Part shown: one piece after another, positions 1,754 to 26,376 of the stretch
Layout: each line of letters begins with the position of its first letter
Position numbering within the stretch: the first letter of the stretch is position 1
The notes under the pieces: model-generated
The model's input: the letters and a program-made list of their open reading frames with translations, nothing else
What the model was told of the DNA's origin: nothing
Database searches by the model: none
DNA from: a virus
Virus record (IMG/VR): IMGVR_UViG_3300031873_000001
Coordinates: 62,001 to 126,000 of that record
DNA: 64,000 bases
Reading direction: 5' to 3' (one strand)
Made by a program: the position numbers and the translations under genes

Positions 1754-1773
1754 TCACAGAAGGGAGAGGAGCA

Positions 1774-2442
1774 ATGCCAGACAGATTAGTTAAGATGTCG
1801 ATGTGGAAGGGAATCCTGAAGGACGTTCTCGGGATGACGACCTACGCCACGATACGGGATCCCGACACGGGCCGGGACAACCTGAAGAGCATCCGGATCA
1901 GGGGAGCGAAGGATAAGATCGGCTTCGTGGCGACCAACGGCCACCAGTTCGTTTCCTTAGAGCTCGACCTCGTCAAGGTTGGCGTGGAGGGCGAGGAGAT
2001 GCCGGAGGTTCTTTTGAACTACCGGGACGCCATCAGGATCGTGGACTTTCTCGAGCGTTCCGTCGTCGGGTTGGAGTCTGCGGATATCACCTTCAACCTG
2101 GGGGATCCCGAGGTGGACCTGAAGGAGCGGAAGGCGAGCCTCAGCATCTCGATGAACGGGCGTTCCCTGCAGGTTCCCCTGGCCTACGAGCCTGCCTATC
2201 CGAGCGTCGCCGATATCACGGCGAAGGCCAAGAGCATTCCCGTATCCGTCTGTTTCAACGCCAAGTATCTGATGGAGATGTGCCAGCACATCGGGGCCGA
2301 CGACATCAAGCTCTGCATAGACAAAGAGGCGGGATCTCTTACGCAGGTGACCTTGCTCCCGTCCGGAGTAAGGAAGAACGACAGCATCGATGCCCTGTGC
2401 ATCTTGATGCCGGTCCGTCTTCCGGGAGAGGTGCCGATTTGA
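1774..2442 (+). CDS. Sliding-clamp (DnaN-like) protein, shortened
   Basis: 222 aa; a GGGAGAGG site precedes the ATG. Two features recall bacterial beta clamps: an ATNGHQFVSLEL segment like the ATDGHRLA segment of DnaN, and a C-terminus CILMPVRL like the conserved YxIMPMRL end. Bacterial DnaN is about 370 aa with three domains, so this would hold only about two, perhaps forming a ring from more subunits. It would tether a polymerase, but no polymerase is recognised in this window. The call rests on short motifs. Confidence 0.55.
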   Translation: MPDRLVKMSMWKGILKDVLGMTTYATIRDPDTGRDNLKSIRIRGAKDKIGFVATNGHQFVSLELDLVKVGVEGEEMPEVLLNYRDAIRIVDFLERSVVGLESADITFNLGDPEVDLKERKASLSISMNGRSLQVPLAYEPAYPSVADITAKAKSIPVSVCFNAKYLMEMCQHIGADDIKLCIDKEAGSLTQVTLLPSGVRKNDSIDALCILMPVRLPGEVPI

Positions 2443-2663
2443 GCCCGACTGCTGGCGCCAGCAGTCATCGAGCTCACGAAAAAGTTGAGCTCACGAAGAG
2501 GCGGCTCGAAGTAACTTATCAGTGTCCCAACCTCCACCAGTGGAGCAAGGACTACGAGACGGATATCGTCGGGAAGCCTCTTAGAGCGTTCCCGTCGACC
2601 GACACGTGCTCGGTCTGCGGGAAGGTCGGCAAGACGATCTGCTGGGGATACTCATTGAAATGA
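2439..2663 (+). CDS. Small zinc-finger protein with TTG start
   Basis: A TTG at 2439 overlaps the upstream stop, with GGGAGAGG seven bases before it; the same TTG-in-stop arrangement occurs at 10561. The 74-aa product has C..H and CSVCG motifs suggesting a zinc site. Its first codons contain the 20-bp palindrome at 2447-2466. Function unknown. Confidence 0.55.
   Translation: MSPTAGASSHRAHEKVELTKRRLEVTYQCPNLHQWSKDYETDIVGKPLRAFPSTDTCSVCGKVGKTICWGYSLK
2447..2466. repeat. 20-bp perfect palindrome, copy 1 of 3
   Basis: GACTGCTGGCGCCAGCAGTC is its own reverse complement. Its core TGCTGGCGCCAGCA occurs at 24912-24925 and again, extended, at 57530-57547, each time at a gene boundary. No T-run follows, so it is not a standard intrinsic terminator. 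It may be a protein-binding site or an RNA hairpin. Confidence 0.8.
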
Positions 2664-3000
2664 TGTTAGGCAGGGAGGGGCCTGTGGTGACCCCCGAGCG
2701 GTTTAACTCCGCATGTTTGTAAGGGCGAGCAGGTACTCTAATTGAAATCGTGGAATCCAAAATTAACGAACGGATTCCCAAATTCCCTCCCTGCCTGGAA
2801 TTATAAAGGGCGCGGCGCCGTCATGCGGGCGGTGCGATCAAGTCGGGATTATCTCTACTGGCAAGTGGGGAGTGAGCCCCGGACGTCGCGCTCGATGATA
2901 TCGTGGGGAGCTGACGACTGCCGAGAAGGGACTGCCGTGCCCGGCGACGGTCTCGGATCAGCTGAAGCACTCCCCACGCAGGAATCATAAGGAGGATACG
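2664..3000 (+). ncRNA. Non-coding stretch with two long inverted repeats
   Basis: 337 bp without a convincing gene. It holds a perfect 11-bp inverted repeat (GGCAGGGAGGG 2669-2679 with CCCTCCCTGCC 2785-2795) and a perfect 9-bp one (TGGGGAGTG 2866-2874 with CACTCCCCA 2968-2976), each enclosing about 90-105 nt. Two separate structured RNA domains are plausible. No promoter was recognised directly upstream. Confidence 0.4.
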
Positions 3001-3219
3001 ATGAACGTGACGTTAGAGCAGATTGAAAAGATGGAGACGTTCAAGCCTCTTGAGCGTTGCGAGTCGTCTCGGGCGGAAGATCGGGAATGCCAGGGCTTCT
3101 TGAGGCTAGCTCAGGTGCGACGGGCGAAGGATGCTTCTCATGCGGTCGTGGTTCGGGTCTGTGATGCCTGTGGCCGGAAGCAGGAATCCCACATGGGCTT
3201 CTTTAAGGCGTCATTATGA
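3001..3219 (+). CDS. Small Cys-containing protein, 72 aa
   Basis: A strong AAGGAGG site precedes the ATG. Contains a CDACG knuckle and earlier cysteines (RC, ECQ), suggesting a zinc site. The stop overlaps the next start. Function not recognised. Confidence 0.6.
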   Translation: MNVTLEQIEKMETFKPLERCESSRAEDRECQGFLRLAQVRRAKDASHAVVVRVCDACGRKQESHMGFFKASL

Positions 3220-3812
3220 GGGGACGAACCATCGCGCTTAATAAGACCCAAGAAAGCGACCGAAGGTGGGTTAGAGAAAATAGGGATAAGATTAATAAGT
3301 GGCACCGAAGGTGGCGCGAGAAGAATCCCGAAAGAGTTAGGATTTATGAACAGGCGCGTAGGGCTCGGGAATATGCCAGCGAAGGAACGTTTACTCTGAG
3401 AGAGTGGAAGTTATTGAAGGTTATATATGGCTATCGTTGTCCTGTTTGTGGTGAGAGTGAACCAGAAATTAAACTTACGGTAGACCATATTATTCCACTG
3501 ATAAAGCATGGAAGTAACTTTATAGAAAATATTCAACCTCTCTGCCTGAAATGTAATATACGTAAGGGCGCAGAGGTCTGGAAGGTCTTGCCGAATGGTC
3601 AGAAGATTTTTTTCGACCTTCAAACTATAAACAACGGAAATACTATGAGGGCAAAAAGAATGGAAACGTCTCAACAGGTTCTTCGAGATTGGAAGGCAAT
3701 AATGACGACATGGCCATCCAGGGGGATACCGGGTAGCCCGGCTACCCCCCTGGACGCCTTCCAGGAGGGCAGGAAAGCCCCCTGGGTGCGAGAAGGGGGG
3801 TCGGGTCGATGA
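3216..3812 (+). CDS. HNH homing-type endonuclease
   Basis: 198 aa. The HNH core is clear: CPVCGE, then LTVDHIIPL with the catalytic His pair region, then ENIQPLCLKCN. A basic region rich in Arg/Trp precedes it. The first 450 bp are much more AT-rich than the neighbours, a sign of a mobile gene. The last 30 or so codons run through a strong hairpin (3717-3754) and GC-rich sequence, so the natural C-terminus may be longer than in the original gene. No duplicated neighbour gene end was found here, unlike the other endonucleases of the window. Confidence 0.8.
   Translation: MRGRTIALNKTQESDRRWVRENRDKINKWHRRWREKNPERVRIYEQARRAREYASEGTFTLREWKLLKVIYGYRCPVCGESEPEIKLTVDHIIPLIKHGSNFIENIQPLCLKCNIRKGAEVWKVLPNGQKIFFDLQTINNGNTMRAKRMETSQQVLRDWKAIMTTWPSRGIPGSPATPLDAFQEGRKAPWVREGGSGR
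3717..3754. repeat. Strong hairpin, terminator-like
   Basis: GGGTAGCC c GGCTACCC (3731-3747) is nested inside TCCAGGGGG (3717-3725) and CCCTGGA (3748-3754). There is no T-run. It lies inside the 3' end of the HNH reading frame. Confidence 0.6.
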
Positions 3813-4369
3813 AGTACCTCACCCGCTGGGAAAGGCCTATGGTGATCGGGATGAAAGCCTATGGCAGTATCACGGGGGACTTCCGGAAGCTCATGCCCCG
3901 CCTGGCCGGGGAAGGAGTCCGGCTCGCCGGAGAGCATGGCGTGGGGAACGCCCGGATCGGGATGGACGGGGTGTGCTTCTCAAGGCAGTGTGAGTTCACG
4001 AGCAAGCCCCGGAAGGTCATGGTCGGGGGATGGGATGGAGGAGCGGACGGAGGAGTCGCCGTAGCCGAGCAGAAGAAGGTCGGAGTCGATCCCTGGGAAG
4101 CGTTCTGCTTTCCCCGGACGATCCTTCCGGTCGACTGTGAGCCCTCCCGGGAACATCAGAGCATGGAGTTCGTGGCGACCGACGATGATAACTACCAGCT
4201 CGCCGTGGAGAGCTTCCTTCTGATCGCCAGTTTCTACCTGGGGGAGAATGTGGATGTCCAGACGCAGAGGGATGAGAATGCCAAGAAGGTATTCGCTCGG
4301 GCCATTGAGGTTTGCCGGGCCGTCCTGGGTTACAAAGTCGAGCGCATCCTTGAGAAGGTGGCCGAGTGA
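3809..4369 (+). CDS. Unknown protein, 186 aa
   Basis: The ATG overlaps the HNH stop. No recognisable domain. The N-terminal half is Gly-rich; the C-terminal half is helical (LAVESFLLIASFYL, then a charged helix ending KVERILEKVAE). The stop overlaps the GTG of the next gene. Confidence 0.55.
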   Translation: MKYLTRWERPMVIGMKAYGSITGDFRKLMPRLAGEGVRLAGEHGVGNARIGMDGVCFSRQCEFTSKPRKVMVGGWDGGADGGVAVAEQKKVGVDPWEAFCFPRTILPVDCEPSREHQSMEFVATDDDNYQLAVESFLLIASFYLGENVDVQTQRDENAKKVFARAIEVCRAVLGYKVERILEKVAE

Positions 4370-4728
4370 AGGTCTGTAGGTGGAAGAAGTGCCGGAAGAA
4401 GTTCAAGCCCCGGGCCAATGCTCAGGCGTATTGTAGCACCCGCTGTATGATGGATTCCGGTAACGAGAGGGATAAGCTTTGGTGGAAGGCTCACCCGGAT
4501 AAGGCGAAGAAGATGAACCGGAGGAAGCATCTGCGGAGGCGCCGGGATCCGAAGAAGTGGGAAGCCTACAAGAAGTATCATCGGGATTATAACGCCGTGC
4601 GGTTGGAGCTCGATAAGACCTTCAGGAAGCGTCGGAGGCTCTGGGAGAAGAAGGGACGCCTGAAGCGTCAGCTAATACGGATGGGAGTCGATCCGGCTAC
4701 TCTTGAAAGTCTAACATCGAAAGGATGA
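4366..4728 (+). CDS. Basic zinc-finger protein (CxxxxC...CxxxC)
   Basis: GTG start overlapping the upstream TGA. A short Cys4 finger (C-RWKK-C then Y-C-STR-C) is followed by a very basic helical tail. This finger occurs in phage HNH-associated proteins, and a related small one is at 45060. Probably nucleic-acid binding. Confidence 0.6.
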   Translation: MKVCRWKKCRKKFKPRANAQAYCSTRCMMDSGNERDKLWWKAHPDKAKKMNRRKHLRRRRDPKKWEAYKKYHRDYNAVRLELDKTFRKRRRLWEKKGRLKRQLIRMGVDPATLESLTSKG

Positions 4729-4729
4729 A

Positions 4730-4921
4730 ATGGGAAGAGTCAAGTTCGTGACTGTCCGGCATGTCTGTGGTCACACGGAGACGTTTGAGGTTTTCGGAGA
4801 CCCTCAGAGCAATGCTCTGCTCATGAAGGTCCAGAAGCAAAGGCCGTGCCCGACGTGCGTAACGAAGGCTAAGTCGATCGGCCTTCAGGAGCCCTCGAAG
4901 AATTTTCCGGCGAGGCCTTGA
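4730..4921 (+). CDS. Small zinc-binding protein, 63 aa
   Basis: Has a VCGH knuckle and a CPTC knuckle 30-35 residues apart, fitting one zinc site. The stop overlaps the -35 box of the promoter at 4918. Function unknown. Confidence 0.55.
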   Translation: MGRVKFVTVRHVCGHTETFEVFGDPQSNALLMKVQKQRPCPTCVTKAKSIGLQEPSKNFPARP

Positions 4922-4946
4922 CAATTACATTGAGAACCGTTATAAT
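4918..4946 (+). promoter_or_regulatory. Sigma-70 type promoter (family copy 1)
   Basis: TTGACA (4918-4923), a 17-nt spacer and TATAAT (4941-4946), all perfect consensus. The spacer resembles those of 21260 and 42432 (ATTACxTTGxGAAxCCG-like), so these look like copies of one promoter type. It drives the nucleotidyltransferase gene at 4970. Confidence 0.9.
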
Positions 4947-4969
4947 AAAGCCCATGAAGGAACGATCCG

Positions 4970-5479
4970 ATGGCGAAGGGTAAGCAAATCCCGAGGGAGA
5001 CCGTCGATCCGATCATTGACAAGGTCAACAAGCGACTGCAGGGCGTGGCGTTAAACTTTATGGTCTGCGGGTCGTATCGCCGGGGTTGTCCTCTCGTGAG
5101 GGACGTCGACCTTGTGGCGATCGCATCTCAGGAATCGGACAGGGATCAAATCTTGGAAGCCTTCGGGGAGCTTCTGGATCCGACGTTCCCCCGCTTCCAC
5201 GTCCAGGGCAACCGGGTCCACTCCGGCCCGATCGACTACGTCATGGTCGATCTGAACGTCGGCCTGCCGGACGAGTGGGCGGCGATGGTCTGCTACGCAA
5301 CGGGGAGCATGATGTTTAATATCAAGATGCGTGGCCTTGCCAAGAAGCAGGGATTCAAGCTGTCCCAATATGGCCTGTTCAGGCCGGACGGATCGAAGGT
5401 CGTTACGCCTACGGAGGAGGACGTCTTTAAGGCGATCGGGATGGAGTTCAAGTTTCCGGAAGAGAGAAATATCTACTAG
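4970..5479 (+). CDS. PolX-family nucleotidyltransferase, minimal form
   Basis: 169 aa. CGSYRRG followed by RDVDLVAI is the palm of family X polymerases (GS-x-RRG...D-x-D), a further Asp lies in IDYVMVDL, and the C-terminus has the thumb motifs GSMMFNIKMRGLAKK...YGLF and PTEEDVFKAIG. The N-terminal lyase and fingers domains of cellular PolX are absent. It should transfer nucleotides to DNA or RNA ends; the substrate is unknown. It is the first gene after a consensus promoter. Confidence 0.8.
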   Translation: MAKGKQIPRETVDPIIDKVNKRLQGVALNFMVCGSYRRGCPLVRDVDLVAIASQESDRDQILEAFGELLDPTFPRFHVQGNRVHSGPIDYVMVDLNVGLPDEWAAMVCYATGSMMFNIKMRGLAKKQGFKLSQYGLFRPDGSKVVTPTEEDVFKAIGMEFKFPEERNIY

Positions 5480-5497
5480 ATGGGAGGTGGATGCACG

Positions 5498-6022
5498 ATG
5501 AAGAGCAAAAAGAAACCGACACCCAAGAGGCCAAAGGCGAAGGCGAAGACCGAGGCCCCGAAGGTCAAGACACCCGAGGAGCCCAAGGGTCCAGCGGCTC
5601 CAGAGGCTCCAGCGGCTCCGGAGGCCAAGGCGCCGGAGAAGACTGCCCTTCCGACGTTCCCTGCGGACGTCGAGCTCAAGAACCTTCTGTTGTTTGAGGG
5701 GAGGCTTGGGCCCTTCCAGGTGGGAGAGAAGGTTTACAAGCACATCCTGGACTTTATGTGCGGCCGCTGGTTCTGGGACGAGTCCCTTTACGGTAGTTAC
5801 GTTCCGGAGGAAATTCGGGGGGGCTACGTCCTGCTGTCTAGAGGATGGGGGAATAGCCCGACCGAGAAGTGGAGGGAGTACCTGAGCAAGACTGCCGTCG
5901 ATCGGGGATCTCGAAGGTCGGACGGGACGCTTCCTTCGTGGATGGTGGATTCCCACATGGTCATGACCATTGATCAGTTCAAGGCATGGTTCAATAAGAT
6001 GCTTGATCTTAAATCCCAGTAG
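5498..6022 (+). CDS. Unknown protein with basic and Pro/Ala-rich N-terminus
   Basis: The ATG at 5498 is chosen because GGGAGGTGG lies just before it. The first 60 residues are Lys/Pro/Ala/Glu repeats of KTPEEPKGPAAPEAPAAPEA type, likely disordered. A folded domain of about 110 residues follows, rich in Trp/Tyr/Phe. No family recognised. Confidence 0.6.
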   Translation: MKSKKKPTPKRPKAKAKTEAPKVKTPEEPKGPAAPEAPAAPEAKAPEKTALPTFPADVELKNLLLFEGRLGPFQVGEKVYKHILDFMCGRWFWDESLYGSYVPEEIRGGYVLLSRGWGNSPTEKWREYLSKTAVDRGSRRSDGTLPSWMVDSHMVMTIDQFKAWFNKMLDLKSQ

Positions 6023-6621: not shown

Positions 6622-6858
6622 GTGGAGAACGAAAACTTCTTCTATCTGACCAAGCTCGGAGCGACGCCATCGACGCCTCAGCTTCCAACGGATGGGCAGA
6701 GGCTCACCGTAGCCGAGATGATGGAACAGCAGGTCGGCGCGAAGGGGAAGGAGGCCGAGGCCTACACGGTCAACGTCGACGGACGGTCGGTTGGTCTGAA
6801 CGACGTGATCATGCCCGGCTCGAAGGTCGTGGTGATGAAGTCCCTTAGACTTGGGTAA
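6622..6858 (+). CDS. Ubiquitin-like modifier (Ubl)
   Basis: GTG start with a GGGAGGTGA site. 78 aa with a beta-grasp-like pattern (AYTVNVDGRSVGLNDVIMPGSKVVVM), similar in size to the Ubl (protein C) of bacterial PRTRC systems. The chain ends KSLRLG, a free C-terminal glycine after a ubiquitin-like LRL, as needed for E1 activation without trimming. The next genes encode E2, JAB and E1 proteins, which makes the modifier reading strong. The target is unknown. Confidence 0.8.
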   Translation: MENENFFYLTKLGATPSTPQLPTDGQRLTVAEMMEQQVGAKGKEAEAYTVNVDGRSVGLNDVIMPGSKVVVMKSLRLG

Positions 6859-6859
6859 G

Positions 6860-6930
6860 TCCCCTCGGGGGTCCAAGCTCTAGGTCTGCAGACTCGGCGG
6901 CTTGTGGAGACCCCACAGCCGCCGAGGGGA
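6860..6930 (+). promoter_or_regulatory. Alternative hairpins between Ubl and E2 genes
   Basis: An inner 13-nt stem (6895-6907 with 6912-6924, one bulge) competes with an outer stem TCCCCTCGG (6860-6868) with CCGAGGGGA (6922-6930); both use the CCG at 6922-6924. It may adjust the ratio of modifier to enzyme by attenuation or processing. Confidence 0.5.
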
Positions 6931-6961
6931 CATTTAACGAAACGAGAAAGGACATGGCGCA

Positions 6962-7114
6962 ATGGAGGGCATTTACATGCTCAAGGGAGCAGGAGGAACT
7001 CCTGAGAGGATCCCGCATCAAGTATGCCCGTATCAATTCCTCAGAGGTTCAGGTTCCGGAGGGGGATGCCCAACGGGTTGCGGGGCTTCTCTGCTCGGGG
7101 CCGTGGAGCAATGA
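6962..7114 (+). CDS. Short Gly/Cys-rich peptide, 50 aa
   Basis: The ATG at 6962 is well spaced from AAAGGA at 6947-6952, whereas the ATG at 6954 is too close. It encodes MEGIYMLKGAGG... with the segment GSGSGGGCPTGCGASLLG. The stop at 7112 is one base before the E2 ATG at 7116. It lies in another frame from the E2 gene, where a longer open frame could hide it. It could be a Ubl target, a metal-binding peptide or merely a coupling leader. Confidence 0.5.
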   Translation: MEGIYMLKGAGGTPERIPHQVCPYQFLRGSGSGGGCPTGCGASLLGAVEQ

Positions 7115-7115
7115 T

Positions 7116-8423
7116 ATGAGCACCGCCAACGATATCGCCTTTCCCCCGATCACGGGTCGGAGGGATCGCAGGGACGCCGTAGAGGCGCCCAAGAAGCCAG
7201 CGCCGGCACCGGGGCCCCGGTTTATCATTCCCAATCTCGAGAACGCCGATGGGATGTTCTCGTGGCTCAACAAGTTTGCCGGGCTCAAGGCGGAGGTGAT
7301 CATCCCCCATGCGGAGACGCCTCCCAAGAATGTTCGGATCGACGTGGATCAGTTCGTCGATGAGAGGTTCCGGATTTTCGTTCTGGCCTTTCCGGATGCC
7401 GAGGCCGGGAACGTAGTTAAGAAGGGAACCCGGGAACGGTTCACCGTCCTGGGTCGGGATTTCAAGATGGTGTCCGGGGAGGAGGACTGTCTCGAGCTGT
7501 CTAACCCTAAAGCCTTCACGGATAAGGGATGGAAGATCATGACCGACGATCAGGGGGCCGCCCTGGCTCTCTGGAAGGATCGGAATCTATTCTTCCTGTG
7601 GGATATCGCCCACCGGAAAGACCTGAGCGGGGTCGAGCTCGAGGACAAGGTCAACCTATCGAAGTATATCGTCTTACTGTGGCTGTCGGACGTTAAGGAT
7701 CCCGAGCCCCTCAAGAAGTGGGTTGAGGAAGTTAAGTCCAGGTTCTCAAAGGATTTCGTGGTCGGTCCGATCCTACTTGATGCGCTGAAGGCCCGGCATA
7801 ATACGGAGGTCGAGAAGGTCGGTGCCGCCCTGAAGGACTTGAAGGGGAAGATCGATCAGGCCGCCCGGACGCTTCGCCTGCACTACGACGAGCGGCACAC
7901 CCTTGAGATCACTCTCGAGATTCACAAGACCCTGTCCGGGAAGGTCGATCAGATGTTCAAGGAGCAGATCGAAGCCCTTAGAGATCATCCTAAGATCGAC
8001 CGGATCAGGTTCATTGCGGCAGATGGCCGGGGAGATAACAACATGCGGTTGGAGGTCGTGACCAAGCCGATCTCCTGGCAGGACTGGTGGCTCGGGCAGT
8101 ATCAGTTCACGGTTCCTCTGGCGGAGGGGGCCCATCAGGTCATCGTGACCAATCTCTATCCCCCGCCATCGGGACGGCCTCACCCTCACATCAAGACGCC
8201 GGACAACGTCTGCTGGGGGAATTCCGGGTCGACGGTCCAGGAGCTCCTTTCCGGGATGAGGTTCTTCGAGCTCATCGATCTGATGGTGGGGATCGTGCAG
8301 TCTGTGACGCCCTCGGACGGATGGGGACAGACGATCTCGGAGTGGAAGGATAATTCGGTTCAAAGCAGGTACGTGAAGATTTTCGGTAAGGTTTCTAAAT
8401 CAAAAACGGAGGATGCGAGATGA
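7116..8423 (+). CDS. E2-like conjugating enzyme with long N-terminal region
   Basis: The ATG at 7116 has GGAG seven bases upstream and sits one base after the short peptide's stop. Of 435 aa, the last 120 form a UBC fold: YPPP, then H356-P-H358, then the expected catalytic cysteine C366 in NVCWG, then helices. The first 300 residues are a separate region with a helical middle, not recognised. Expected role: accept activated Ubl from the E1 and pass it on. No RING or other E3 is seen, so the N-terminal region may select targets. Confidence 0.8.
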   Translation: MSTANDIAFPPITGRRDRRDAVEAPKKPAPAPGPRFIIPNLENADGMFSWLNKFAGLKAEVIIPHAETPPKNVRIDVDQFVDERFRIFVLAFPDAEAGNVVKKGTRERFTVLGRDFKMVSGEEDCLELSNPKAFTDKGWKIMTDDQGAALALWKDRNLFFLWDIAHRKDLSGVELEDKVNLSKYIVLLWLSDVKDPEPLKKWVEEVKSRFSKDFVVGPILLDALKARHNTEVEKVGAALKDLKGKIDQAARTLRLHYDERHTLEITLEIHKTLSGKVDQMFKEQIEALRDHPKIDRIRFIAADGRGDNNMRLEVVTKPISWQDWWLGQYQFTVPLAEGAHQVIVTNLYPPPSGRPHPHIKTPDNVCWGNSGSTVQELLSGMRFFELIDLMVGIVQSVTPSDGWGQTISEWKDNSVQSRYVKIFGKVSKSKTEDAR

Positions 8424-9052
8424 AAACTAGGAGGACGGACGACGACGTTGTTGGGGTGCCGTCGTTGAAGATTACCCTCAAGGCGTGGCGTAAAATCCTG
8501 CTCTTCACCCAGGAGACGGACGTGGAGGTGGCCGGGCTCGGGACGGTCAAGATGCAGGGCAACAAACCCATCATCGACGACGTGATGGTTTTCAAGCACG
8601 AGAATCGCAGTGCGGCGGCGGCGGACCTCGACCCGCAGGATATCGCCGATGAGTTCTCCCGGCTGATGGAGGCGAAGCAGGACACCGGGAAGTATCGTCT
8701 GTGCTGGCATAGCCATGTGAATATGCCAGCGTCCTTCAGCGGGACGGACAGGGCCTGCATGAATAGCCTTGCCGATCTCTCGGAGTGGTTCCTGTGGATC
8801 GTGGTCAACAAGAGCGGGGAATATTCGGCGCAGATCGAAGTCTACTCCCCGACCAGGTTCAGAGCGGAGGCCAAGCTCGACATTCTCTTCGACGAGTACG
8901 ACAAGGGCTTGATCGCCGGGGTGAAGCAGGAGATGACGGAGAAACTTTTTCGTTCTACGGAGAAGGGCGAAGAGGACTTTGAAGAAACTCCTGCGGTGGA
9001 GGGGTTGATCGAAGCCTCGAAGACCGGGTCGCAGGTCCTGGAGGGCCCATGA
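8420..9052 (+). CDS. JAB/JAMM metallopeptidase (deubiquitinase-like)
   Basis: 210 aa. The zinc JAMM set is complete: E36 in VEVAG, H97-S-H99, S107 and D110 (HxH-x7-S-x2-D). Proteins of this family cleave isopeptide bonds to, or trim tails of, Ubl proteins. The Ubl here already ends in Gly, so removal of Ubl from targets seems more likely than maturation. Start overlaps the E2 stop; a GGAGGATGCGAGATG leader precedes it. Confidence 0.85.
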   Translation: MKTRRTDDDVVGVPSLKITLKAWRKILLFTQETDVEVAGLGTVKMQGNKPIIDDVMVFKHENRSAAAADLDPQDIADEFSRLMEAKQDTGKYRLCWHSHVNMPASFSGTDRACMNSLADLSEWFLWIVVNKSGEYSAQIEVYSPTRFRAEAKLDILFDEYDKGLIAGVKQEMTEKLFRSTEKGEEDFEETPAVEGLIEASKTGSQVLEGP

Positions 9053-9132
9053 CCACTCCGTCTACCATGAACCGGGACTTCTGGCGGCAGACGGACTTCT
9101 TCGATCCCATGAAGACGCCTGTGACTGCATAG
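9049..9132 (+). pseudogene. Orphan first exon-like piece of the E1 gene
   Basis: The ATG overlaps the JAB stop, the place where E1 would be expected to start. It encodes 27 residues, MTTPSTMNRDFWRQTDFF and onward, then stops. The intact E1 at 9555 starts with almost the same peptide (MNRDFWRQTDFFNPEKTPVSA) but with different synonymous codons. This is the original E1 start, cut off by the insertion of the endonuclease gene at 9148. Confidence 0.85.
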
Positions 9133-9147
9133 GAGAAAAGGAGAGAA

Positions 9148-9567
9148 ATGAGAGATTTCAAGTATGCGCACCCGGAAACTACGAAACATCATTACTATGC
9201 AAAAAATAGGGAGCGCATACTAGAGGCGCAGAAGGCTTTGCGTCCTGGATATAACACAGATATCGTATGGAGGAGAAGAATAAAAGAGCTGGGCATAGCT
9301 GATCCTCTAAAATTTTACGAGTCTGAACTTTGCAAGCAGGGCGGAGTGTGTAAAATTTGTCACGAACCACCAGAGAACGGAGTGCGGTTGTGTATTGACC
9401 ACGAGGAAGATTTTGACCACACCGGATATGTTCGGACGGTCAAAATCCGTGGACTTCTACACTATGAATGCAATCTCGGACTGGGGAACTTTCGCCACGA
9501 CCCCATATTGCTACGTAATGCCGCTGATTATTTAGGTCAAGGAGGTGAGTTGAAATGCAGAGCATGA
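9148..9567 (+). CDS. Endonuclease VII-type homing endonuclease in the E1 gene
   Basis: 139 aa of the phage recombination endonuclease VII fold: CKICHEPP, then LCIDHEEDFDHTG, then IRGLLHYECNLGLGNFRHD and an LLRNAADYL helix. These enzymes have Cys4 zinc and an H-D/N active site. The gene is AT-rich against GC-rich neighbours. It overlaps the replacement E1 start by 13 nt. Confidence 0.85.
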   Translation: MRDFKYAHPETTKHHYYAKNRERILEAQKALRPGYNTDIVWRRRIKELGIADPLKFYESELCKQGGVCKICHEPPENGVRLCIDHEEDFDHTGYVRTVKIRGLLHYECNLGLGNFRHDPILLRNAADYLGQGGELKCRA

Positions 9568-10259
9568 ATCGTGATTTTTGGCGTCAGACAGACTTTTTTA
9601 ATCCCGAAAAGACTCCAGTCTCCGCCACGGTCATAGGCGTCGGAGGGATCGGGTCGTTCACCGCGCTCGCTCTCGGGAAGCTGGGGATCAAGAGCCTCGT
9701 GCTCGTCGATCCGGACGTTGTGGAAGCCCACAACGTTCCTAATCAGCTCTTCCGGATGAATGACGTGGAGGAGGCAAAGGTCGTTGCCGCCGCTCGCTTA
9801 ATTAAGGAGCTTACGGGCATTGAGGAGATCAAGACCTGGGTCATGAGGTTTCCTCCGAAGGATAACCCGTACCCGAAGGATTTGATCACGACCGACCTCG
9901 TGGTCTGCGGGGTGGACACAATGCAAGGTCGGAAGGAGATCTGGGAGTCCGGGATCCGGCGCAACCCCGGGGTGAAGCTGTTTATCGACGGGCGGCTCGG
10001 GGGTCAACAGTTACGCATCCTGTCCGTCAAGGATACCGTCTCGACGGAGTCCATCGAACGCTACGAGCAGACGATCGTGCCGGATGAGACGGTTCCCGAC
10101 CTGCCCTGCACGGCCAGGGCGATCATCGACGTGGGCTTTCTCATCGCCTCTTACATCACCCGGATCGTCCGGAGGCACTTCACCGGACAGCCCATCCCGT
10201 TCGAGACCGTAGCCGACGTGAGCTTCCAGCTTCAGGATCAGCTCTTTGAGTGGGAGTGA
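9555..10259 (+). CDS. E1-like activating enzyme (ThiF/PRTRC type)
   Basis: 234 aa, AAGGAGG site. The ATP-binding loop is VIGVGGIGS, followed by LVLVDPDVVEAHNVPNQLF, where family members have D-x-D...N..R/Q, and VCGVDTM for magnesium. A PCTARA segment near the C-terminus resembles ThiF relatives. It should adenylate the terminal Gly of the Ubl. The first 25 codons are AT-rich and recoded relative to the orphan piece at 9049, showing the front of the gene came with the endonuclease. Confidence 0.85.
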   Translation: MQSMNRDFWRQTDFFNPEKTPVSATVIGVGGIGSFTALALGKLGIKSLVLVDPDVVEAHNVPNQLFRMNDVEEAKVVAAARLIKELTGIEEIKTWVMRFPPKDNPYPKDLITTDLVVCGVDTMQGRKEIWESGIRRNPGVKLFIDGRLGGQQLRILSVKDTVSTESIERYEQTIVPDETVPDLPCTARAIIDVGFLIASYITRIVRRHFTGQPIPFETVADVSFQLQDQLFEWE

Positions 10260-10564
10260 TGTCCTTCAAGCTCCAGGATTTCAAGGTGGGCGACACCGTC
10301 AAGGTCACCTGCCGTTGTGCGATGCATCGCAACGAGTTCAAGAACGATATGGGGGTCGTCGTTGCCCTCAAGCCTGCGGAGGGGGCTCTCCACTACGATA
10401 CCATGTTCATCTGCCTCGACCTGAAGCGGAAGGACAGGAAGAGGTCGTTTCCTCCTCGGGGAGTGGACATTCCATCGGACGAGTGCCTGGCCTTGTTTTC
10501 TCACCGATGCAGTGTGGAGTTCATCACTTCCGAGGAGAGGATATTTTTGAGGGAGCCGATTTGA
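10259..10564 (+). CDS. Small barrel protein, family member 1, ends FLREPI
   Basis: The ATG overlaps the E1 stop, so it is coupled to the cassette. 101 aa. Begins FKLQDFKVGDTVKVTC, the FxxGDxVKV start shared with the next genes. The end FLREPI is a weaker form of the shared C-terminal motif. Function unknown. Confidence 0.65.
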   Translation: MSFKLQDFKVGDTVKVTCRCAMHRNEFKNDMGVVVALKPAEGALHYDTMFICLDLKRKDRKRSFPPRGVDIPSDECLALFSHRCSVEFITSEERIFLREPI

Positions 10565-10890
10565 GTAGGAAGAGGAGGTTCAGGATCGGAGACGTGGTGA
10601 AGGCTACGAAGATAGCCTCTCAGAAGGAATCTGGGGAGCCCATCAGGGCCGTCACCACGGAGGGAGAGCTAGCTGATCGGAGCAGTCTTATTGGGCGATT
10701 GGGTGTCATTGAGGATGTCAGAGTGGTTCGGAATGAAAAATTGAAGGTCACGGCCTATGTCGTGGCCTTCTTTAAGTCCGGTTCCGGGGTCCAAGACAAG
10801 TCCTTCGACGGGTATGCCCCGTTTCTGGGGGACGAGCTCGAGCTCGTATCGAAGGTCGGGGAGAAGGCTATCGTGATCGGGGGGATATGA
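10561..10890 (+). CDS. Small barrel protein, family member 2, ends IVIGGI
   Basis: TTG start inside the upstream TGA, with GAGGGAG before it, as at 2439. About 109 aa starting with basic residues and FRIGDVVKATK. Ends KAIVIGGI, a clear case of the shared C-terminal motif. Likely an SH3/KOW-like fold by pattern only. Confidence 0.6.
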   Translation: MSRKRRFRIGDVVKATKIASQKESGEPIRAVTTEGELADRSSLIGRLGVIEDVRVVRNEKLKVTAYVVAFFKSGSGVQDKSFDGYAPFLGDELELVSKVGEKAIVIGGI

Positions 10891-11342
10891 TGTCCGTGAA
10901 ATACGATCTCTCTTTGATACCGAATCTCGATAAGTTCCGGCGTTTGGAAGTGATAGGCGTGGACTGGGGCGAGGGAGTTAATACCTCTACCGACCCCGAG
11001 CCGAAGCCGGAGCCCAAGTTCAAGGTGGGGGATGCTGTGAGGGTTATAGTCTCTCCCGAAGATGAAGTCATGGGGGAATGGCTGAGTAGGAAGCCCGGGC
11101 TCAAAGATTTATTCCGGATGACTGCGGGAATCATTATTGAGGTTGATCAAACCGAAGGGCCCTTCGGCCCGTTCTACCAGTATGCTATCGGGTTCGGGGT
11201 GGAGCATCCCGCCCTATCGGATTGCGGCCAGAGGCTTTCTCCTTACAGCGGGATCTGGATGCGGGAGGACGGTCTCATGCCCGCCCGGCTTGAGGATGTC
11301 CTGTCCGAATCCAAGCAGGTCTTTGTGATCGGGTCGCTCTGA
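10887..11342 (+). CDS. Small barrel protein, family member 3, ends FVIGSL
   Basis: Two adjacent ATGs (10887, 10890); either may be used. A variable Pro/Glu-rich N-terminus precedes the conserved FKVGDAVRVIVS segment at about residue 48. Ends VFVIGSL. One of six tandem relatives, probably arising by repeated duplication. Confidence 0.65.
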   Translation: MMSVKYDLSLIPNLDKFRRLEVIGVDWGEGVNTSTDPEPKPEPKFKVGDAVRVIVSPEDEVMGEWLSRKPGLKDLFRMTAGIIIEVDQTEGPFGPFYQYAIGFGVEHPALSDCGQRLSPYSGIWMREDGLMPARLEDVLSESKQVFVIGSL

Positions 11343-11617
11343 TGCCGTTTAGCATTGGGGATCCCGTCAAGGTGATATCTGTGAGCGACGCTCTGGACCC
11401 GGACGACAAGGCGTTCAGGGAGTTCATGATCGGTCGGGTCGGGGTCGTCGGGGCTATCTGTGCGGAGTGCCATGAGGAGTATGCCGTTCGCTTCGAAGCC
11501 GAATCGCAATTCCTAACGGACTGCGATGGGGTTCTTCCTGACGCCCACGGCTGGTGGTTTACGGAGGACGAGCTCGAGGCGACGGAGGGTGAGTTCGGGA
11601 TTGTAGGCGGGTTATGA
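11342..11617 (+). CDS. Small barrel protein, family member 4, ends FGIVGGL
   Basis: 91 aa starting directly with FSIGDPVKVISV. Contains a CAEC pair. Ends after a Glu-rich linker in FGIVGGL. Start overlaps the previous stop. Confidence 0.65.
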   Translation: MPFSIGDPVKVISVSDALDPDDKAFREFMIGRVGVVGAICAECHEEYAVRFEAESQFLTDCDGVLPDAHGWWFTEDELEATEGEFGIVGGL

Positions 11618-11979
11618 TCTCAGGGCTGAATAAATTAGTTAATTATCCTGGCTATCCTGGCGCGATAGAGCTACCCGGACATAAAACCAAGTTCAATCTT
11701 GGCGATCCAGTAAAGATTTTGGGTTATCCAGGGGTCCAGGAAGAGTATATTGGGTTGGAGGGCGAGGTAGTTAACATCGTTCATATTGTCAAAGAAGCCG
11801 AGGTGACCGGGGCGAACCTCGATCCGACCGATGGGACTCTCCATGTCGACATGAAAGTTAAGATCGATCACACCGAGTATATTATTAAAATTACGGGTCC
11901 GGCGAAAACTACCCTTACTTTCAAAGAGAACGAGCTCGTTCTTATACCAGAGAAGTTTGGGGTTAAGGAGGGTATCTGA
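11614..11979 (+). CDS. Small barrel protein, family member 5, ends FGVKEGI
   Basis: 121 aa; FNLGDPVKILGYPG at about residue 28 is the family segment. Ends PEKFGVKEGI, a variant of the terminal motif in which Glu replaces the first Gly. Base composition is more AT-rich than its neighbours. Confidence 0.65.
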   Translation: MISGLNKLVNYPGYPGAIELPGHKTKFNLGDPVKILGYPGVQEEYIGLEGEVVNIVHIVKEAEVTGANLDPTDGTLHVDMKVKIDHTEYIIKITGPAKTTLTFKENELVLIPEKFGVKEGI

Positions 11980-12353
11980 TGGCTATGCCAATGCGAGAGA
12001 GGGATATCGACCGTGTAGACGGTGGTCCTGGGTATTACTTGTCTCGAGTTCTCGATTCCCTTCAACGGATTGAGCACAGAATAGAACGCCTTCATGTCGT
12101 TATGGAAGAGCTCCGGAGAGAGCTTCGCATGAGAACCGGCGGGACCACCGAACCCCACCGGGGAATGGCAGGCGATCTGGATACCCCGGCGAGAGCGGCT
12201 CGGGAAGCGCTAGATGAACTGCGCCGTGAGATGGGGCTGGGTGGTTTTGACGACGATACTCCTCCGACGCAGGTAATAGAGCCCGATCCCGAACCGCCAG
12301 AGGAGGAGCAGGTCACTCCGGATGACACCCCGCACGTTGTGGGATCGATCTGA
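11979..12353 (+). CDS. Helical protein with acidic linker, ends HVVGSI
   Basis: 124 aa. Lacks the barrel segment; instead a coiled-coil-like helix (LSRVLDSLQRIEHRIERL) and a second helix. A long acidic Pro linker (EPDPEPPEEE...) leads to HVVGSI. This shows the terminal motif attached to a different fold. Confidence 0.65.
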   Translation: MAMPMRERDIDRVDGGPGYYLSRVLDSLQRIEHRIERLHVVMEELRRELRMRTGGTTEPHRGMAGDLDTPARAAREALDELRREMGLGGFDDDTPPTQVIEPDPEPPEEEQVTPDDTPHVVGSI

Positions 12354-12592
12354 TGAAGTTCGAGGTGGGAGACCGGATCAAGATCGTTCGGAATCTCACC
12401 GAGAAGGGTTGCAAGCTCAGGGGCAAGAAGGGGATGATCATGGGCGTGATTACAAAGAGAAAGCGTAACGGAGGGCCCCGGCTTTACTCCGTCCGCCTGG
12501 AAAGGTGTGCGGGGCTGTGGATTCTCGATGAGGCCGACCTCGACTTTGAGAGTAAGAAGCGTGAGCCCTTCCGTCTGATAGGAGCAATCTGA
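12353..12592 (+). CDS. Small barrel protein, family member 6, ends FRLIGAI
   Basis: 79 aa, start FEVGDRIKIVRNL, then a KGMIMGVI strand typical of KOW/SH3-like barrels. Ends PFRLIGAI. Overlaps both neighbours by the ATGA pattern. Confidence 0.65.
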   Translation: MKFEVGDRIKIVRNLTEKGCKLRGKKGMIMGVITKRKRNGGPRLYSVRLERCAGLWILDEADLDFESKKREPFRLIGAI

Positions 12593-13347
12593 TGTCCGAT
12601 TCTGGTAATGAGTCCCTGTTTGAACGGGTAATCCGGGGCATCGGACTGCAGAGGAGGCGAGAGTCGCCGCCGATAGTGATGTCGACCATGCCTTCCGGGG
12701 GGACGCAGGTGGACTTGGTTGAGAGAATAATGAATGAAGATCTCGCGAGGGCAATGCGAGCTCACGGGGAAGCGTATGGAGGTATGTCCGGATTCTCTGG
12801 ATTTTCCTTTGCCTCCGGTCTCTCCGGCTCTAGCTGGGCGCCTGGTGGAACGTGGGGCATGGCGGATCCAGCGACCGGGGTAAGGTTTGAAGGCCAGCGG
12901 GGTTATTTCGGCGTCCCGGGCTGGGAGGGAGTACCTGGGCTTCCCGAAGGTTGGCCGGAAGCCAAGCCTGCAGAGGGTTACAAGCCCGGGGAAAGAATAG
13001 CTCGGGTCGATGAGTCGACGGGACAGGTGGTCGTGGACGGTCCAGAGCATCCGACGACCCTCTACGGGTTGTCGATCGGGGACTTCGTCGTGGTGGATAG
13101 TGTTTTCCCCTTGGTGTCCCACGACAAGAAGTTTATTTTCAATAAGACGAGCGGTTACATTAAGCATATCATCCGGGCCGGGTACGCCTGGGTCGAGATC
13201 GACGGGCAGTGCCCCTGCAATGACGATTCCCGGGAGAGAAAGCAGTTATGGCATTCCGATAAGGGCCACTGCCACTGGTTTCCCAATTCCGTCCTCTTCC
13301 TTGCGGACGAGAGCACGGCAAAGTTCTATGTGAGGGGTTATCTATAG
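12592..13347 (+). CDS. Gly-rich protein with barrel segment, ends FYVRGYL
   Basis: 251 aa. A helical N-terminus, then a Gly/Phe/Ser/Trp-rich stretch (residues about 60-110), then a domain with LSIGDFVVVDSVFP and CPCN. Ends KFYVRGYL. Could be a virion or assembly protein; unknown. Confidence 0.65.
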   Translation: MSDSGNESLFERVIRGIGLQRRRESPPIVMSTMPSGGTQVDLVERIMNEDLARAMRAHGEAYGGMSGFSGFSFASGLSGSSWAPGGTWGMADPATGVRFEGQRGYFGVPGWEGVPGLPEGWPEAKPAEGYKPGERIARVDESTGQVVVDGPEHPTTLYGLSIGDFVVVDSVFPLVSHDKKFIFNKTSGYIKHIIRAGYAWVEIDGQCPCNDDSRERKQLWHSDKGHCHWFPNSVLFLADESTAKFYVRGYL

Positions 13348-23241: not shown

Positions 23242-23317
23242 CGGGGCGTGGTGTAGTCCGGCCTAACACACCTGCCCTTCAAGCAGGCGATCATGGGTTC
23301 AAATCCCATCGCCCCGA
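23242..23317 (+). tRNA. tRNA-Glu (TTC), C33
   Basis: Acceptor CGGGGCG/CGCCCCG; anticodon loop CCTTCAA, so position 33 is C rather than U. T-loop TTCAAAT. CCA is not encoded. The D-arm (GTGGTGTAGTCCGGCC) resembles archaeal tRNA-Glu. It lies apart from the main array. Confidence 0.85.
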
Positions 23318-23376
23318 CAAGGGAGCTATTACAGTCCGGAGCCCACGACGTGCCCGAACCATAATTTTAAACCTGG

Positions 23377-24930
23377 ATGGTTAAGCTCTTCATCGGAGAT
23401 GCCCGGGACGTGCTGGCCGCCCTGCCGGAGAAGAGCGTCCACGCCGTAATAACCAGCCCGCCCTACTACGGACTCCGGGCGTATAAGAGTCCACCTTCCG
23501 TGTGGGGAGGTAAGAGGGACTGCAAGCACAAGTGGGGGGCTACGATCCCTCACCCCATGCGAAAGTCTGGCCAGCACGGTCCGGGGAGCTGTGTGGCGGT
23601 CGGGACGAAGGCCGCTCAGCACGGGCTCAGGAAGACGGGGGATCAAGGATGCTTCTGTGGGCGTTGCGGGGCGTGGAGGGGTGTCCTTGGCATGGAGCCT
23701 ACCCTGGAGCTCTACGTGGAGCATCTGGGCGTGATTGGGGAGGGTATCCGGAGGGTCTTGCGGGACGACGGGATATTCTGGCTTAACCTCGGAGACTCCT
23801 ATATGGGGAGCGGCGGTCCAGGCGGGGATTTCCGAGACGGGAAGGGAGGAGACATCTACTGCCGACCCTACAACCGGAGTGGGGACGGCCTCAAGATGAA
23901 GGACATGTGCGCCGTGCCGTGGAGGGTCGCCCTGGCCTTCCAGATGAGCGGCTGGTGGCTACGATCCGACTGCATCTGGAAGAAGGAGAACGTCATGCCC
24001 GAGAGCATCGACGGATGGCGTTGGGAGAAGCACAGGGTGAAAGTGAAGAATCTCCGGAAGGCGTCTACCGAGTGGGCTACCAAGAGCGGGAATACTTCGG
24101 GAGACGCCGGGCCGGGCCTGTCCCACAATCCCTGGGCTGAATATAAGCCCTGCCCCGGGTGTGCGGAGTGCCTCCCGAACGATGGCCTCGTTCTTCGGAG
24201 GGGAGCGTGGAGGCCGACGAAGGCTCACGAGTACGTCTTTATGTTTACGAAGGGCGAGCGTTACTTCGGAGACGGGGATGCTGTCAGGGAAGAGGCCGTC
24301 ACCTCGGAGTGGCCGGGGATCGGACCGAAGCACATCTCAGCACGGTCCAGGCTTGAAGAATACGTTCCGATGGAAACCAGGGAGACCCGAAACCGCAGGA
24401 CGGTCTGGACGATCAACACGACGGGATTCAAAGGCGCCCACTTCGCCACCTTCCCTCCGGCCCTCGTGGAGGTCATGGTGAACGTGTCGACGAGCTTCCG
24501 GGGCGTCTGCAGGAAGTGCGGATCCCAGTGGGCCCGGGTCGTGAACCGGAAGAGCCTCGAGCGTCACGAGCTCGACCGAACAGATCCACGGTTCCGTCCG
24601 TCAAGATACAAGGGGAAATACGGAGAGCTCAAAGGCGAGACGGGGAACGCCCAACGGTATGTGGAGATCGAACATCTCGGATGGCGACCGACGTGCAAGT
24701 GCAACGCCGGGGAGCCCATTCCGGCAGTCGTCCTGGATCCATTCGTGGGATCGGGGACAGCCTGCTTCGAGGCCCAGCGTCTCGGGAGGGATGCCATCGG
24801 GATAGACGTCTCGGATGAGTATATCCAGATGAGCCTGAAGAGGGTGCGGGACGATGCCCCGCTGTTCAATCAGGTCGAAGTGATTTACGCGAATGGCCGG
24901 GTGAAGCGATGTGCTGGCGCCAGCAGGTAG
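23377..24930 (+). CDS. DNA amino-methyltransferase 3
   Basis: 517 aa. TSPPYYGLR near the start and DPFVGSGTA near residue 453. The middle has two Cys pairs (HKWG..., CFCGRC; CPGCAEC; CRKCGS), so it carries zinc ribbons. Related in layout to the enzyme at 29778. The stop lies beside the palindrome at 24912. Confidence 0.85.
   Translation: MVKLFIGDARDVLAALPEKSVHAVITSPPYYGLRAYKSPPSVWGGKRDCKHKWGATIPHPMRKSGQHGPGSCVAVGTKAAQHGLRKTGDQGCFCGRCGAWRGVLGMEPTLELYVEHLGVIGEGIRRVLRDDGIFWLNLGDSYMGSGGPGGDFRDGKGGDIYCRPYNRSGDGLKMKDMCAVPWRVALAFQMSGWWLRSDCIWKKENVMPESIDGWRWEKHRVKVKNLRKASTEWATKSGNTSGDAGPGLSHNPWAEYKPCPGCAECLPNDGLVLRRGAWRPTKAHEYVFMFTKGERYFGDGDAVREEAVTSEWPGIGPKHISARSRLEEYVPMETRETRNRRTVWTINTTGFKGAHFATFPPALVEVMVNVSTSFRGVCRKCGSQWARVVNRKSLERHELDRTDPRFRPSRYKGKYGELKGETGNAQRYVEIEHLGWRPTCKCNAGEPIPAVVLDPFVGSGTACFEAQRLGRDAIGIDVSDEYIQMSLKRVRDDAPLFNQVEVIYANGRVKRCAGASR
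24912..24925. repeat. Palindrome, copy 2 of 3
   Basis: TGCTGGCGCCAGCA, a 14-bp self-complementary core identical to the centre of the copies at 2447 and 57530. It forms the last codons of methyltransferase 3 and precedes the tRNA array. Confidence 0.8.
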
Positions 24931-24933
24931 CGT

Positions 24934-24961
24934 TGCGGGGTAGACCAACAGTAAGTCAGGG
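24934..24961 (+). pseudogene. 5' half of a tRNA (fMet-like acceptor)
   Basis: TGCGGGG, TA and a D-arm GACC...GTC. It lacks a matching 3' part nearby; the complementary 3' acceptor CCCCGCA plus ACCA lies at 25779-25789. A second similar 5' half (GCGGGATAGACC...GTAAGTCAG) follows at about 24966-24992. Confidence 0.6.
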
Positions 24962-24965
24962 GCGT

Positions 24966-24992
24966 AGCGGGATAGACCAATCCGGTAAGTCA
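24966..24992 (+). pseudogene. Second tRNA 5'-half repeat
   Basis: AGCGGGATAGACCAATCCGG and onward repeats the acceptor-plus-D-arm pattern of 24934 about 34 nt later. No anticodon arm follows; the intact fMet-type tRNA starts directly after it. Confidence 0.5.
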
Positions 24993-24997
24993 GAAGG

Positions 24998-25072
24998 GGC
25001 GGGGTGGAGCAATAGCAACTCGTCAGGCCCATAACCTGAAAATTCTCGGTGCGAATCCGAGCCCCGCTCCCA
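24998..25072 (+). tRNA. tRNA-fMet (CAT), C33
   Basis: Acceptor GGCGGGG/CCCCGCT with G-U at 1-72, as initiators have a weak first pair; disc C, CCA encoded. Body GGGGTGGAGCA resembles bacterial initiator tRNA. Anticodon loop CCCATAA (C33). T-loop TGCGAAT is odd, lacking T54-T55. Confidence 0.8.
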
Positions 25073-25083
25073 GATTAAGAAGA

Positions 25084-25689
25084 TTATAGTAATCCGTTTT
25101 CATGTTCCCAGTGATGGTTAGGGCAGAGATAAGAAAGGTTCTTGATATTGTTAATTTCAGATATGAAAGCCGTGTCCGGGAAGTCTGCGACCCTTTTATT
25201 GTGAGAGCATTCAACGTGTTTTCGATATCCACAGATTCTACATTTTGCTTTAATCCCGGATTTCCTTATGATCAGTCTTGCCATGCGAGCTATTTTGCTC
25301 CTAGCTAATTGCCAAGTGTTCTTTGATTTAAAGAATTCGCCTTTGGTTTTGCTCGCAATGCTTCTTTCGAACTTGATAATTTGAAGGCAGTCATTGCAAA
25401 ACCGTCTTTTGAAATTATATTGAATGGGATATGAACCGTGGCATCGTTCACATTCATAGGAGTATGTTTTGTGGGTTCGGCGTCTTCGGGCATTATTGAA
25501 AATTGCGGCACAAGTGTGGTTGCAGAAGCATTTGGATTTCGTTTCTCCAACCTTGTGGCCATCTGGAACCTCGATAACCTTATGGCATTGAAGGCAGACT
25601 GAGGGATGCTTGTAATATTTTTTGAGGGCCCGTTCTCTGAGGATTTTAGCTGTGGCTATGCCACCGGCGGACTGCCATACTTTTCTCAT
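25084..25689 (-). CDS. HNH endonuclease inside a split tRNA, antisense
   Basis: 201 aa on the minus strand, the only confident minus-strand gene here. Zinc fingers CLQCHK, CFCNHTC, CERCHG, CNDC and CRICGY lead to an HNH end (VECSHNKRVADFPD...LCPNHHWEHENG). AT-rich. It lies between tRNA 5' halves plus an intact fMet tRNA and the leftover 3' half. Confidence 0.85.
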   Translation of the reverse strand: MRKVWQSAGGIATAKILRERALKKYYKHPSVCLQCHKVIEVPDGHKVGETKSKCFCNHTCAAIFNNARRRRTHKTYSYECERCHGSYPIQYNFKRRFCNDCLQIIKFERSIASKTKGEFFKSKNTWQLARSKIARMARLIIRKSGIKAKCRICGYRKHVECSHNKRVADFPDTAFISEINNIKNLSYLCPNHHWEHENGLL

Positions 25690-25734
25690 GGGTATCTCCG
25701 ATTTAGGTTACGGTTAAATCATAGCACAGTAGGG

Positions 25735-25789
25735 TTACGGAAAGCAAGTCCTTGTCGGATTCTGGGTGCGACTCCCAGCCCCGCAACCA
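25735..25789 (+). pseudogene. 3' half of a split tRNA (fMet-like)
   Basis: T-arm CTGGG TGCGACT CCCAG, then CCCCGCA, A and CCA. Very similar to the 3' end of the intact fMet tRNA, including the unusual TGCGA T-loop. Its acceptor pairs perfectly with TGCGGGG at 24934-24940. Left end approximate. Confidence 0.65.
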
Positions 25790-25802
25790 GGACTTATAAA
25801 AG

Positions 25803-25891
25803 GGCGGGCTGATGAAATGGTAGACAAGTGAGGCTTAAACCCTCATGGCCTTTACATAGCCGTCTGGGTCCGAATCCCAGGCCCGCCACCA
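25803..25891 (+). tRNA. tRNA-Leu (TAA)
   Basis: Acceptor GGCGGGC/GCCCGCC, A, CCA. Anticodon loop CTTAAAC with U33. Long variable arm as expected for Leu. Confidence 0.95.
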
Positions 25892-25892
25892 T

Positions 25893-25969
25893 AGGAGCGT
25901 AGTTCAATGGATCAGAACGCACGGCTCCAACCCGTGTTGATAGGGGTTCAAATCCTCTCGCTCCTGCCA
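25893..25969 (+). tRNA. tRNA-Trp (CCA)
   Basis: Acceptor AGGAGCG/CGCTCCT, G73, CCA. Loop CTCCAAC, U33. Confidence 0.95.
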
Positions 25970-25975
25970 AAAATT

Positions 25976-26051
25976 GGGGATGTATTTCAATGGCGAGAAT
26001 GCCTGCCCTACAAGCAGGAGATTGGAGGTTCGAGTCCTCCCGTCCCCACCA
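25976..26051 (+). tRNA. tRNA-Val (TAC), C33
   Basis: Acceptor GGGGATG/CGTCCCC, A, CCA. Stem CCTGC/GCAGG, loop CCTACAA, so C33. Confidence 0.93.
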
Positions 26052-26052
26052 G

Positions 26053-26128: not shown

Positions 26129-26131
26129 AAC

Positions 26132-26216: not shown

Positions 26217-26220
26217 ATGT

Positions 26221-26295: not shown

Positions 26296-26299
26296 GAAT

Positions 26300-26373: not shown

Positions 26374-26376
26374 TAT

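Follow-up and report, generated by a model that had tools for sequence, protein, structure and literature searches.

The stretch of viral DNA analysed here (the window, 64,000 nucleotides in full) comprises bases 62001–126000 of the 159,536-base virus record IMGVR_UViG_3300031873_000001, and all coordinates below are window positions. The record is that of a tailed phage, with tail fibre, baseplate wedge and terminase proteins, a DnaB helicase, a primase, a UvsX-like recombinase and 32 tRNAs. The nearest relatives of its terminase, from Vibrio and actinobacterial phages, share at most 37% identity with it, so the lineage is remote. A preliminary description of this DNA had proposed a complete ubiquitin-like conjugation cassette of five parts, namely a ubiquitin-like protein (Ubl), a short Cys/Gly peptide, a conjugating enzyme (E2), a JAB peptidase and an activating enzyme (E1). 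The Ubl, E2, JAB and E1 genes are indeed present in that order, all on the plus strand. The Cys/Gly peptide is instead a structured intergenic RNA and not a gene, and an HNH open reading frame (ORF) between JAB and E1 had been overlooked. The features of the locus are as follows.

6622..6858, plus strand: Ubl, 78 residues, predicted MoaD/ThiS-like β-grasp protein (Foldseek search of the model, ThiS match of a relative, conserved terminal glycine).
6859..6945, plus strand: conserved, cloverleaf-like structured RNA (near-identical in a sister phage; −43 kcal/mol, z −3.5).
6954..8423, plus strand: E2-like protein, 489 residues (core alignment with relatives L015, L062 and PhiXhv-16; profile matches in the PDB).
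7950–8345, plus strand: ubiquitin-conjugating (UBC)-like core of the E2, about residues 333–464.
8181–8189, plus strand: E2 motif H410-P411-H412; predicted catalytic C420 at 8211–8213.
8420..9052, plus strand: JAB/JAMM metallopeptidase, 210 residues (Pfam Prok-JAB, E 4e-9, above the curated cut-off).
9050..9131, plus strand: original E1 start, cut to a 27-codon stub (one mismatch to the E1 start of the sister over about 80 nucleotides).
9148..9567, plus strand: HNH/endonuclease VII ORF within the 5′ end of E1 (Pfam Endonuclease_7, 5.5e-11).
9555..10259, plus strand: E1, 234 residues, a single adenylation domain (Pfam ThiF, E 1.3e-18).

That a phage carries the full Ubl/E2/JAB/E1 set is supported by homology, which is strong for E1 and JAB and runs through intermediates for E2 and Ubl, by synteny and by the conservation of catalytic residues. 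The sister phage, a record of 160,139 bases in IMG/VR, has the same four genes in the same order, their proteins being 84–90% identical to those of the window, and the ratios of nonsynonymous to synonymous substitution rates (dN/dS) between the two phages range from 0.16 to 0.53.

The E1 reads GVGGIG at the GxGGIG motif, as the preliminary description had it, and a profile of its family, phage homologues included, matches UBA5, the E1 of UFM1, at 1.6e-13. Over 90 distinct E1s, G28, G30, D52, K75 and D121 are conserved at 100%, R10 at 94% and C185 at 99%, the last being the candidate catalytic cysteine. The JAB possesses all of the JAMM residues ascribed to it (E36, H97-S-H99, S107 and D110), and E36, H97, H99, S107 and D110 are 100% conserved among 105 distinct homologues. 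The JAB family profile, likewise with phage homologues, matches Pyrococcus JAMM1, the archaeal SAMP protease, at 5.8e-6.

Direct searches of the E2 against Pfam, PHROG, NCBIfam and PDB sequences gave no match, and intermediates were required. L015, L062, L060 and Xanthomonas phage PhiXhv-16 (L135) have relatives of it that are flanked by similar genes, and in an alignment of the catalytic cores HP...C.G is retained, as are a conserved Tyr strand and a Pro/Trp near the end. Searched against the PDB, profile A9 matches ubiquitin-conjugating enzymes exclusively (best UBC12, E 0.047), their catalytic cysteine aligning with that of the profile, and the 44 matches of profile A6 are all E2s apart from a few RNF168 helices; the relative in L062 matches Pfam UQ_con at its own active site with an E of 0.014. 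Individually weak as they are, these scores combine with the synteny to make a UBC domain in this protein very likely. The motif HPH...C had been noticed correctly and numbered as H356 and C366, which fits a start 54 codons downstream; the start is the ATG at 6954, conserved in the sister, and the residues are H410-P411-H412...C420. HPH stands where classical E2s have HPN. Among 79 distinct phage E2s, 63 carry H[SP]H...C-x-G, and examples from the remainder keep variants of it such as QSH...CVG. The long N-terminal region remarked upon earlier is real, with about 330 residues preceding the UBC core. Three relatives of the E2, one of them the 892-residue E2 of PhiXhv-16, bear Cys-rich, zinc-ribbon-like C-terminal arrays (L015 5091–7007, L062 6712–7926, L135 2256–4934), which are possibly E3-like or target-binding.

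The C-terminus of the Ubl is VVVMKSLRLG, and the LRLG ending given in the preliminary description is thus accurate; the sister ends in SLRLGD, as against SLRLG in the window. Among the 16 best PDB matches of the Ubl structure model (mean predicted local distance difference test score, pLDDT, 66), nearly all are MoaD, SAMP1, ThiS, TtuB or SAMP2 (E 0.03–0.3), and the Ubl of L060, a phage contig of 231 kb that carries these parts too, matches Pfam ThiS (0.0025) and SAMP2 (0.047). The folds of Ubl and E2 are well supported, if indirectly. Ubls of the window's kind end in LRLG, LRLG-D, DGG-K, KGG-K, KGG-IA or KSG-D, that is, in a glycine followed by 0–2 residues. Those of the type found in crAss phages have a K-x-SG pattern in 74 of 79 distinct sequences, with 2–217 residues behind it. 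The Ubl of PhiXhv-16, a phage without a detected JAB, already has KASGG at its C-terminus. Judged from the sequences, these C-terminal patterns are as would be expected of a modifier matured by a JAB.

The Cys/Gly peptide, placed at 6859–6953, corresponds to a frame that has no start codon and that indels disrupt in the sister, even though the two DNA sequences differ very little. The spacer between Ubl and E2 folds into the same cloverleaf-like RNA in both phages. It is present in a single copy, is not called as a tRNA and matches no family in Rfam.

The HNH ORF has a G+C content of 46% compared with 58–59% in its flanks and is absent from the sister, where JAB and E1 overlap by 4 bases. In the window the second start of E1 is recoded over its first ~61 shared nucleotides (9564–9624): set against the old start, it keeps 43 matches in the first 60 nucleotides, and the codon changes comprise 11 synonymous and 3 nonsynonymous ones. 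Past the recoded stretch, the identity of E1 with the sister climbs to about 97% in the 60 nucleotides that follow. The simplest inference is that the HNH protein is a homing endonuclease bearing a recoded, uncuttable copy of the 5′ end of its target, so that E1 would be left intact. Since the insertion restored the start of E1 with mostly synonymous changes, E1 seems to be worth keeping.

The cassette is found well beyond these two phages. The E1 profile matched 41 viral contigs and the JAB profile 96, the Ubl profile matches 101 viral loci, and JAB is followed by a neighbouring E1 in 115 of the 127 loci that have either gene, some contigs being counted more than once. The order Ubl-E2-JAB-E1 recurs in about 100 viral loci, including Bacteroides phages crAss001 (Gp79–Gp76) and DAC15 and Flavobacterium phage FpV4. 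In crAss001 (L143, 1895–6305), Gp76 is the E1, Gp77 the JAB, Gp78 the E2-like protein and Gp79 the Ubl; public annotation calls the genes of such crAss-type cassettes hypothetical, metalloprotease or thiamine biosynthesis. In the cultured jumbo phage PhiXhv-16, Ubl, E2 and E1 lie at 1754–5630, with no JAB detected. With this linkage seen in about 100 loci, and with catalytic residues that hardly vary among them, the cassette is more than a chance assembly. At an E1 coverage of at least 80%, none of 68 plasmid matches was retained, as against 44 phage records. Across 84,980 prokaryote species only one relative of the E1 family was met, on a 3.7-kb contig of a metagenome-assembled genome, in a scan by exact short motifs that remote forms may escape. 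In the E1 tree the window clusters with L001, L068, L062, L060 and L015 (support 0.94), and the separation of all phage E1s from bacterial ones is weak (support 0.67). No published account of this phage E1/E2 cassette was found in the searchable literature, and the papers on crAss phages that were consulted do not mention the cassette; subscription journals and preprints lay outside this search, so priority is not certain.

The gene order, the homology of E1 and JAB, the conservation of catalytic residues and the recurrence across phages are direct observations, and on them we base the proposal that the cassette encodes a self-contained ubiquitin-like conjugation pathway of the phage itself, to which we assign a probability of roughly 0.72. 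Every catalytic step of this pathway, together with its timing and its targets, is what we infer. The Ubl would carry a C-terminal glycine (LRLG), or the JAB would trim the Ubl to expose one; a single terminal glycine is sufficient in CBASS and Atg8 conjugation (PMC10097602). E1 would adenylate this glycine and would probably hold the Ubl on C185, from which the E2 would take it onto C420 and then pass it to a target lysine, and the JAB would reverse the bond between Ubl and target. The targets are likely proteins, and the pathway probably acts early, its substrates being proteins of host or phage that take part in the replication and takeover programme. With no separate E3 in evidence, target binding likely falls to the long N-terminal region of the E2; in the window this region may stand in place of the Cys-rich arrays of the relatives.

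Several observations weigh against this proposal. The best fold match of the Ubl has an E of 0.03 and the best profile match of the E2 one of 0.047, both of them weak as individual scores. The AlphaFold model of the E2, built with 3 sequences, has a pLDDT of 36 and is unusable; its Foldseek list does hold E2s, and we do not count it as evidence. Profile–profile comparison by hhalign gave no significant link between the Ubl and E2 of the window and those of the crAss type. No separate E3 was found. The window Ubl already ends in glycine, so that maturation by the JAB is unnecessary there, and the JAB has the highest dN/dS (0.53) among the four cassette genes.

Could the cassette be cargo instead, a Bil/Bub-like anti-phage module that blocks competitor phages through tags placed on the proteins of their virions? 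All four components occur in Bil as well, where BilC exposes the C-terminal glycine of BilA (PMC11354881); moreover, the E1–E2 and JAB models of the PADLOC defence library match the window E1 and JAB. The traits that define Bil, however, namely a tandem Ubl, a two-domain E1 and a CEHH E2, fail here. In many crAss-type phages the cassette also occupies a fixed position near replication genes instead of occurring sporadically, and its E1 family was met just once in bacterial genomes, which makes cargo defence an unlikely explanation in our judgement. The set might otherwise blunt a Ubl defence of the host, such as Bil or CBASS Cap2/Cap3, by stripping conjugates or competing for them. JAB homologues can remove conjugates, and bacterial Ubl defences exist (PMC10097602), but for this purpose a JAB alone would suffice, whereas Ubl, E1 and E2 are retained with intact active sites across phages and PhiXhv-16 keeps these three without a detected JAB; we regard such counter-defence as highly improbable.

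The Ubl might also be no protein modifier at all but a ThiS/TtuB-like thiocarboxylate donor for tRNA thiolation or cysteine supply. The nearest folds of its model are sulfur carriers, its E1 is named as the thiamine biosynthesis protein ThiF in public records, and the window phage is rich in tRNAs. Neither a rhodanese nor a PP-loop ATPase (ATP_bind_3) was found in the record, however, and in most loci the JAB is accompanied by an E2-like gene with His...Cys-x-Gly. Both observations speak against sulfur transfer, and we give this explanation as little credence as counter-defence.

If the cassette does encode a conjugation pathway of the phage, what might it serve? In crAss phages it adjoins the primase and uracil-DNA glycosylase (UDG) genes, and in the window phage DnaB and primase lie ~5 kb downstream of it; this proximity suggests an early role in replication or host takeover, which the gene context favours over virion assembly. 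In the virion atlas of crAss001, the main text makes no mention of Gp76–79. The wider idea is that crAss001-like phages, along with several further phage groups, have reversible Ubl conjugation as a core viral function, which they would retain beside their replication genes and use to reprogramme host or phage replication proteins, the system being virus-borne rather than a bacterial defence; to this we give about even odds.

Other features surround the cassette. A small PolX-type DNA polymerase β (palm and thumb, 169 residues) lies at 4970–5479, 1.1 kb upstream. After E1, small overlapping ORFs occupy 10250–13347, most with a C-terminus of [IV]xG[GSA][IL] and several with a common GDxVKV stretch. 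These endings of consecutive ORFs were considered as a conjugation signal and rejected, being largely accounted for by a G-rich, Shine-Dalgarno-like sequence before overlapping TGATG starts. The 32 tRNA genes form a dense array at 23242–29766; DNA methyltransferase ORFs are located at 23377–24930 and 29685–31079, and the latter overlaps the last tRNA call of the array. Two related glycosyltransferase ORFs, at 33283–34440 and 41041–42435 (PHROG 2170, E about 1e-35), could possibly act in modification of DNA or of the host surface.

The bacterial Ubl conjugation systems with a known role act mostly in anti-phage defence. A full E1–E2–Ubl–JAB set kept by phages would invert the usual direction of this defence, and ubiquitin-type protein tagging may thus be a tool of bacterial viruses, beyond a defence against them. 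If the pathway is true, four genes that lie side by side in crAss001-like gut phages gain a likely function. Cultured phage–host pairs exist (crAss001, DAC15 and PhiXhv-16), and the targets can therefore be searched for directly. The pairing of a minimal, single-domain E1 and a separate HPH-type E2 is relevant, too, to the origin of eukaryotic ubiquitination.

The preliminary description had named PRTRC and Bil as parallels. Both are the right kind of system, and the window cassette falls within neither of them; as far as its sequences tell, it would work like PRTRC, Bil and CBASS conjugation while belonging to none of the three, whose traits are taken here from the descriptions in PMC1779556, PMC11354881 and PMC10097602. 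PRTRC, or operon type 6d of Iyer 2006, is carried by plasmids and mobile elements and resembles the cassette in having a single small Ubl with a C-terminal glycine, a separate E2, a JAB and an E1 in one operon (PMC1779556). Yet the window E1 matches PRTRC_ThiF weakly (9.9e-8) and below the cut-off, with 31.6 bits against 144.75, and Ubl, E2, JAB and their neighbours match none of the curated PRTRC models, PRTRC A, B and C included. The E2s of type 6d have a conserved histidine downstream of the cysteine (PMC1779556), whereas in the window E2 and its relatives HPH lies upstream of C420; the helical partner and the JAB-N domain of type 6d are not seen in the cassette.

Bil/Bub has Ubl, E2, JAB and E1 in common with the cassette, and its peptidase uncovers the glycine of the Ubl (PMC11354881), as the phage JAB is proposed to do where needed. 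BilA is a tandem Ubl and BilD comprises an inactive and an active adenylation domain and a Cys domain (PMC11354881), in contrast to the single 78-residue Ubl and the 234-residue E1 with one ThiF domain in the window. The CEHH arrangement of BilB (Cys, then Glu, His and His downstream) is absent as well, C420 being followed by WGNSGSTVQELLSG, without E-x-H...H within 14 residues. Type II CBASS likewise has E1, E2 and JAB components in Cap2/Cap3 (PMC10097602), but in Cap2 the E1 and E2 are fused and conjugate cGAS without a Ubl (PMC10097602), whereas in the window they are separate and accompanied by a Ubl. For the CD-NTase neighbour of CBASS no counterpart was recognised, the sole polymerase-β-fold neighbour of the cassette to be recognised being the PolX-type polymerase.

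Phage-encoded Ubl and JAB proteins are also known as TAPI and TAPK of Lambda/T1 tail assembly; these lie within a tail-assembly cluster for which E1 and E2 are undescribed (PMC1779556), different from the full conjugation set near replication genes in the window. The cassettes of Crassvirales and Fipvunavirus have the gene order of the window, a homologous E1 (about 26–34% identity) and a homologous JAB (HSH...SGTD). Their Ubl carries K-x-SG with a long C-terminal extension instead of ending in glycine, and their E2 has HSH...C-x-G; hhalign gives no significant link of this Ubl or this E2 to those of the window, which they resemble in position, in motif order and in the glycine.

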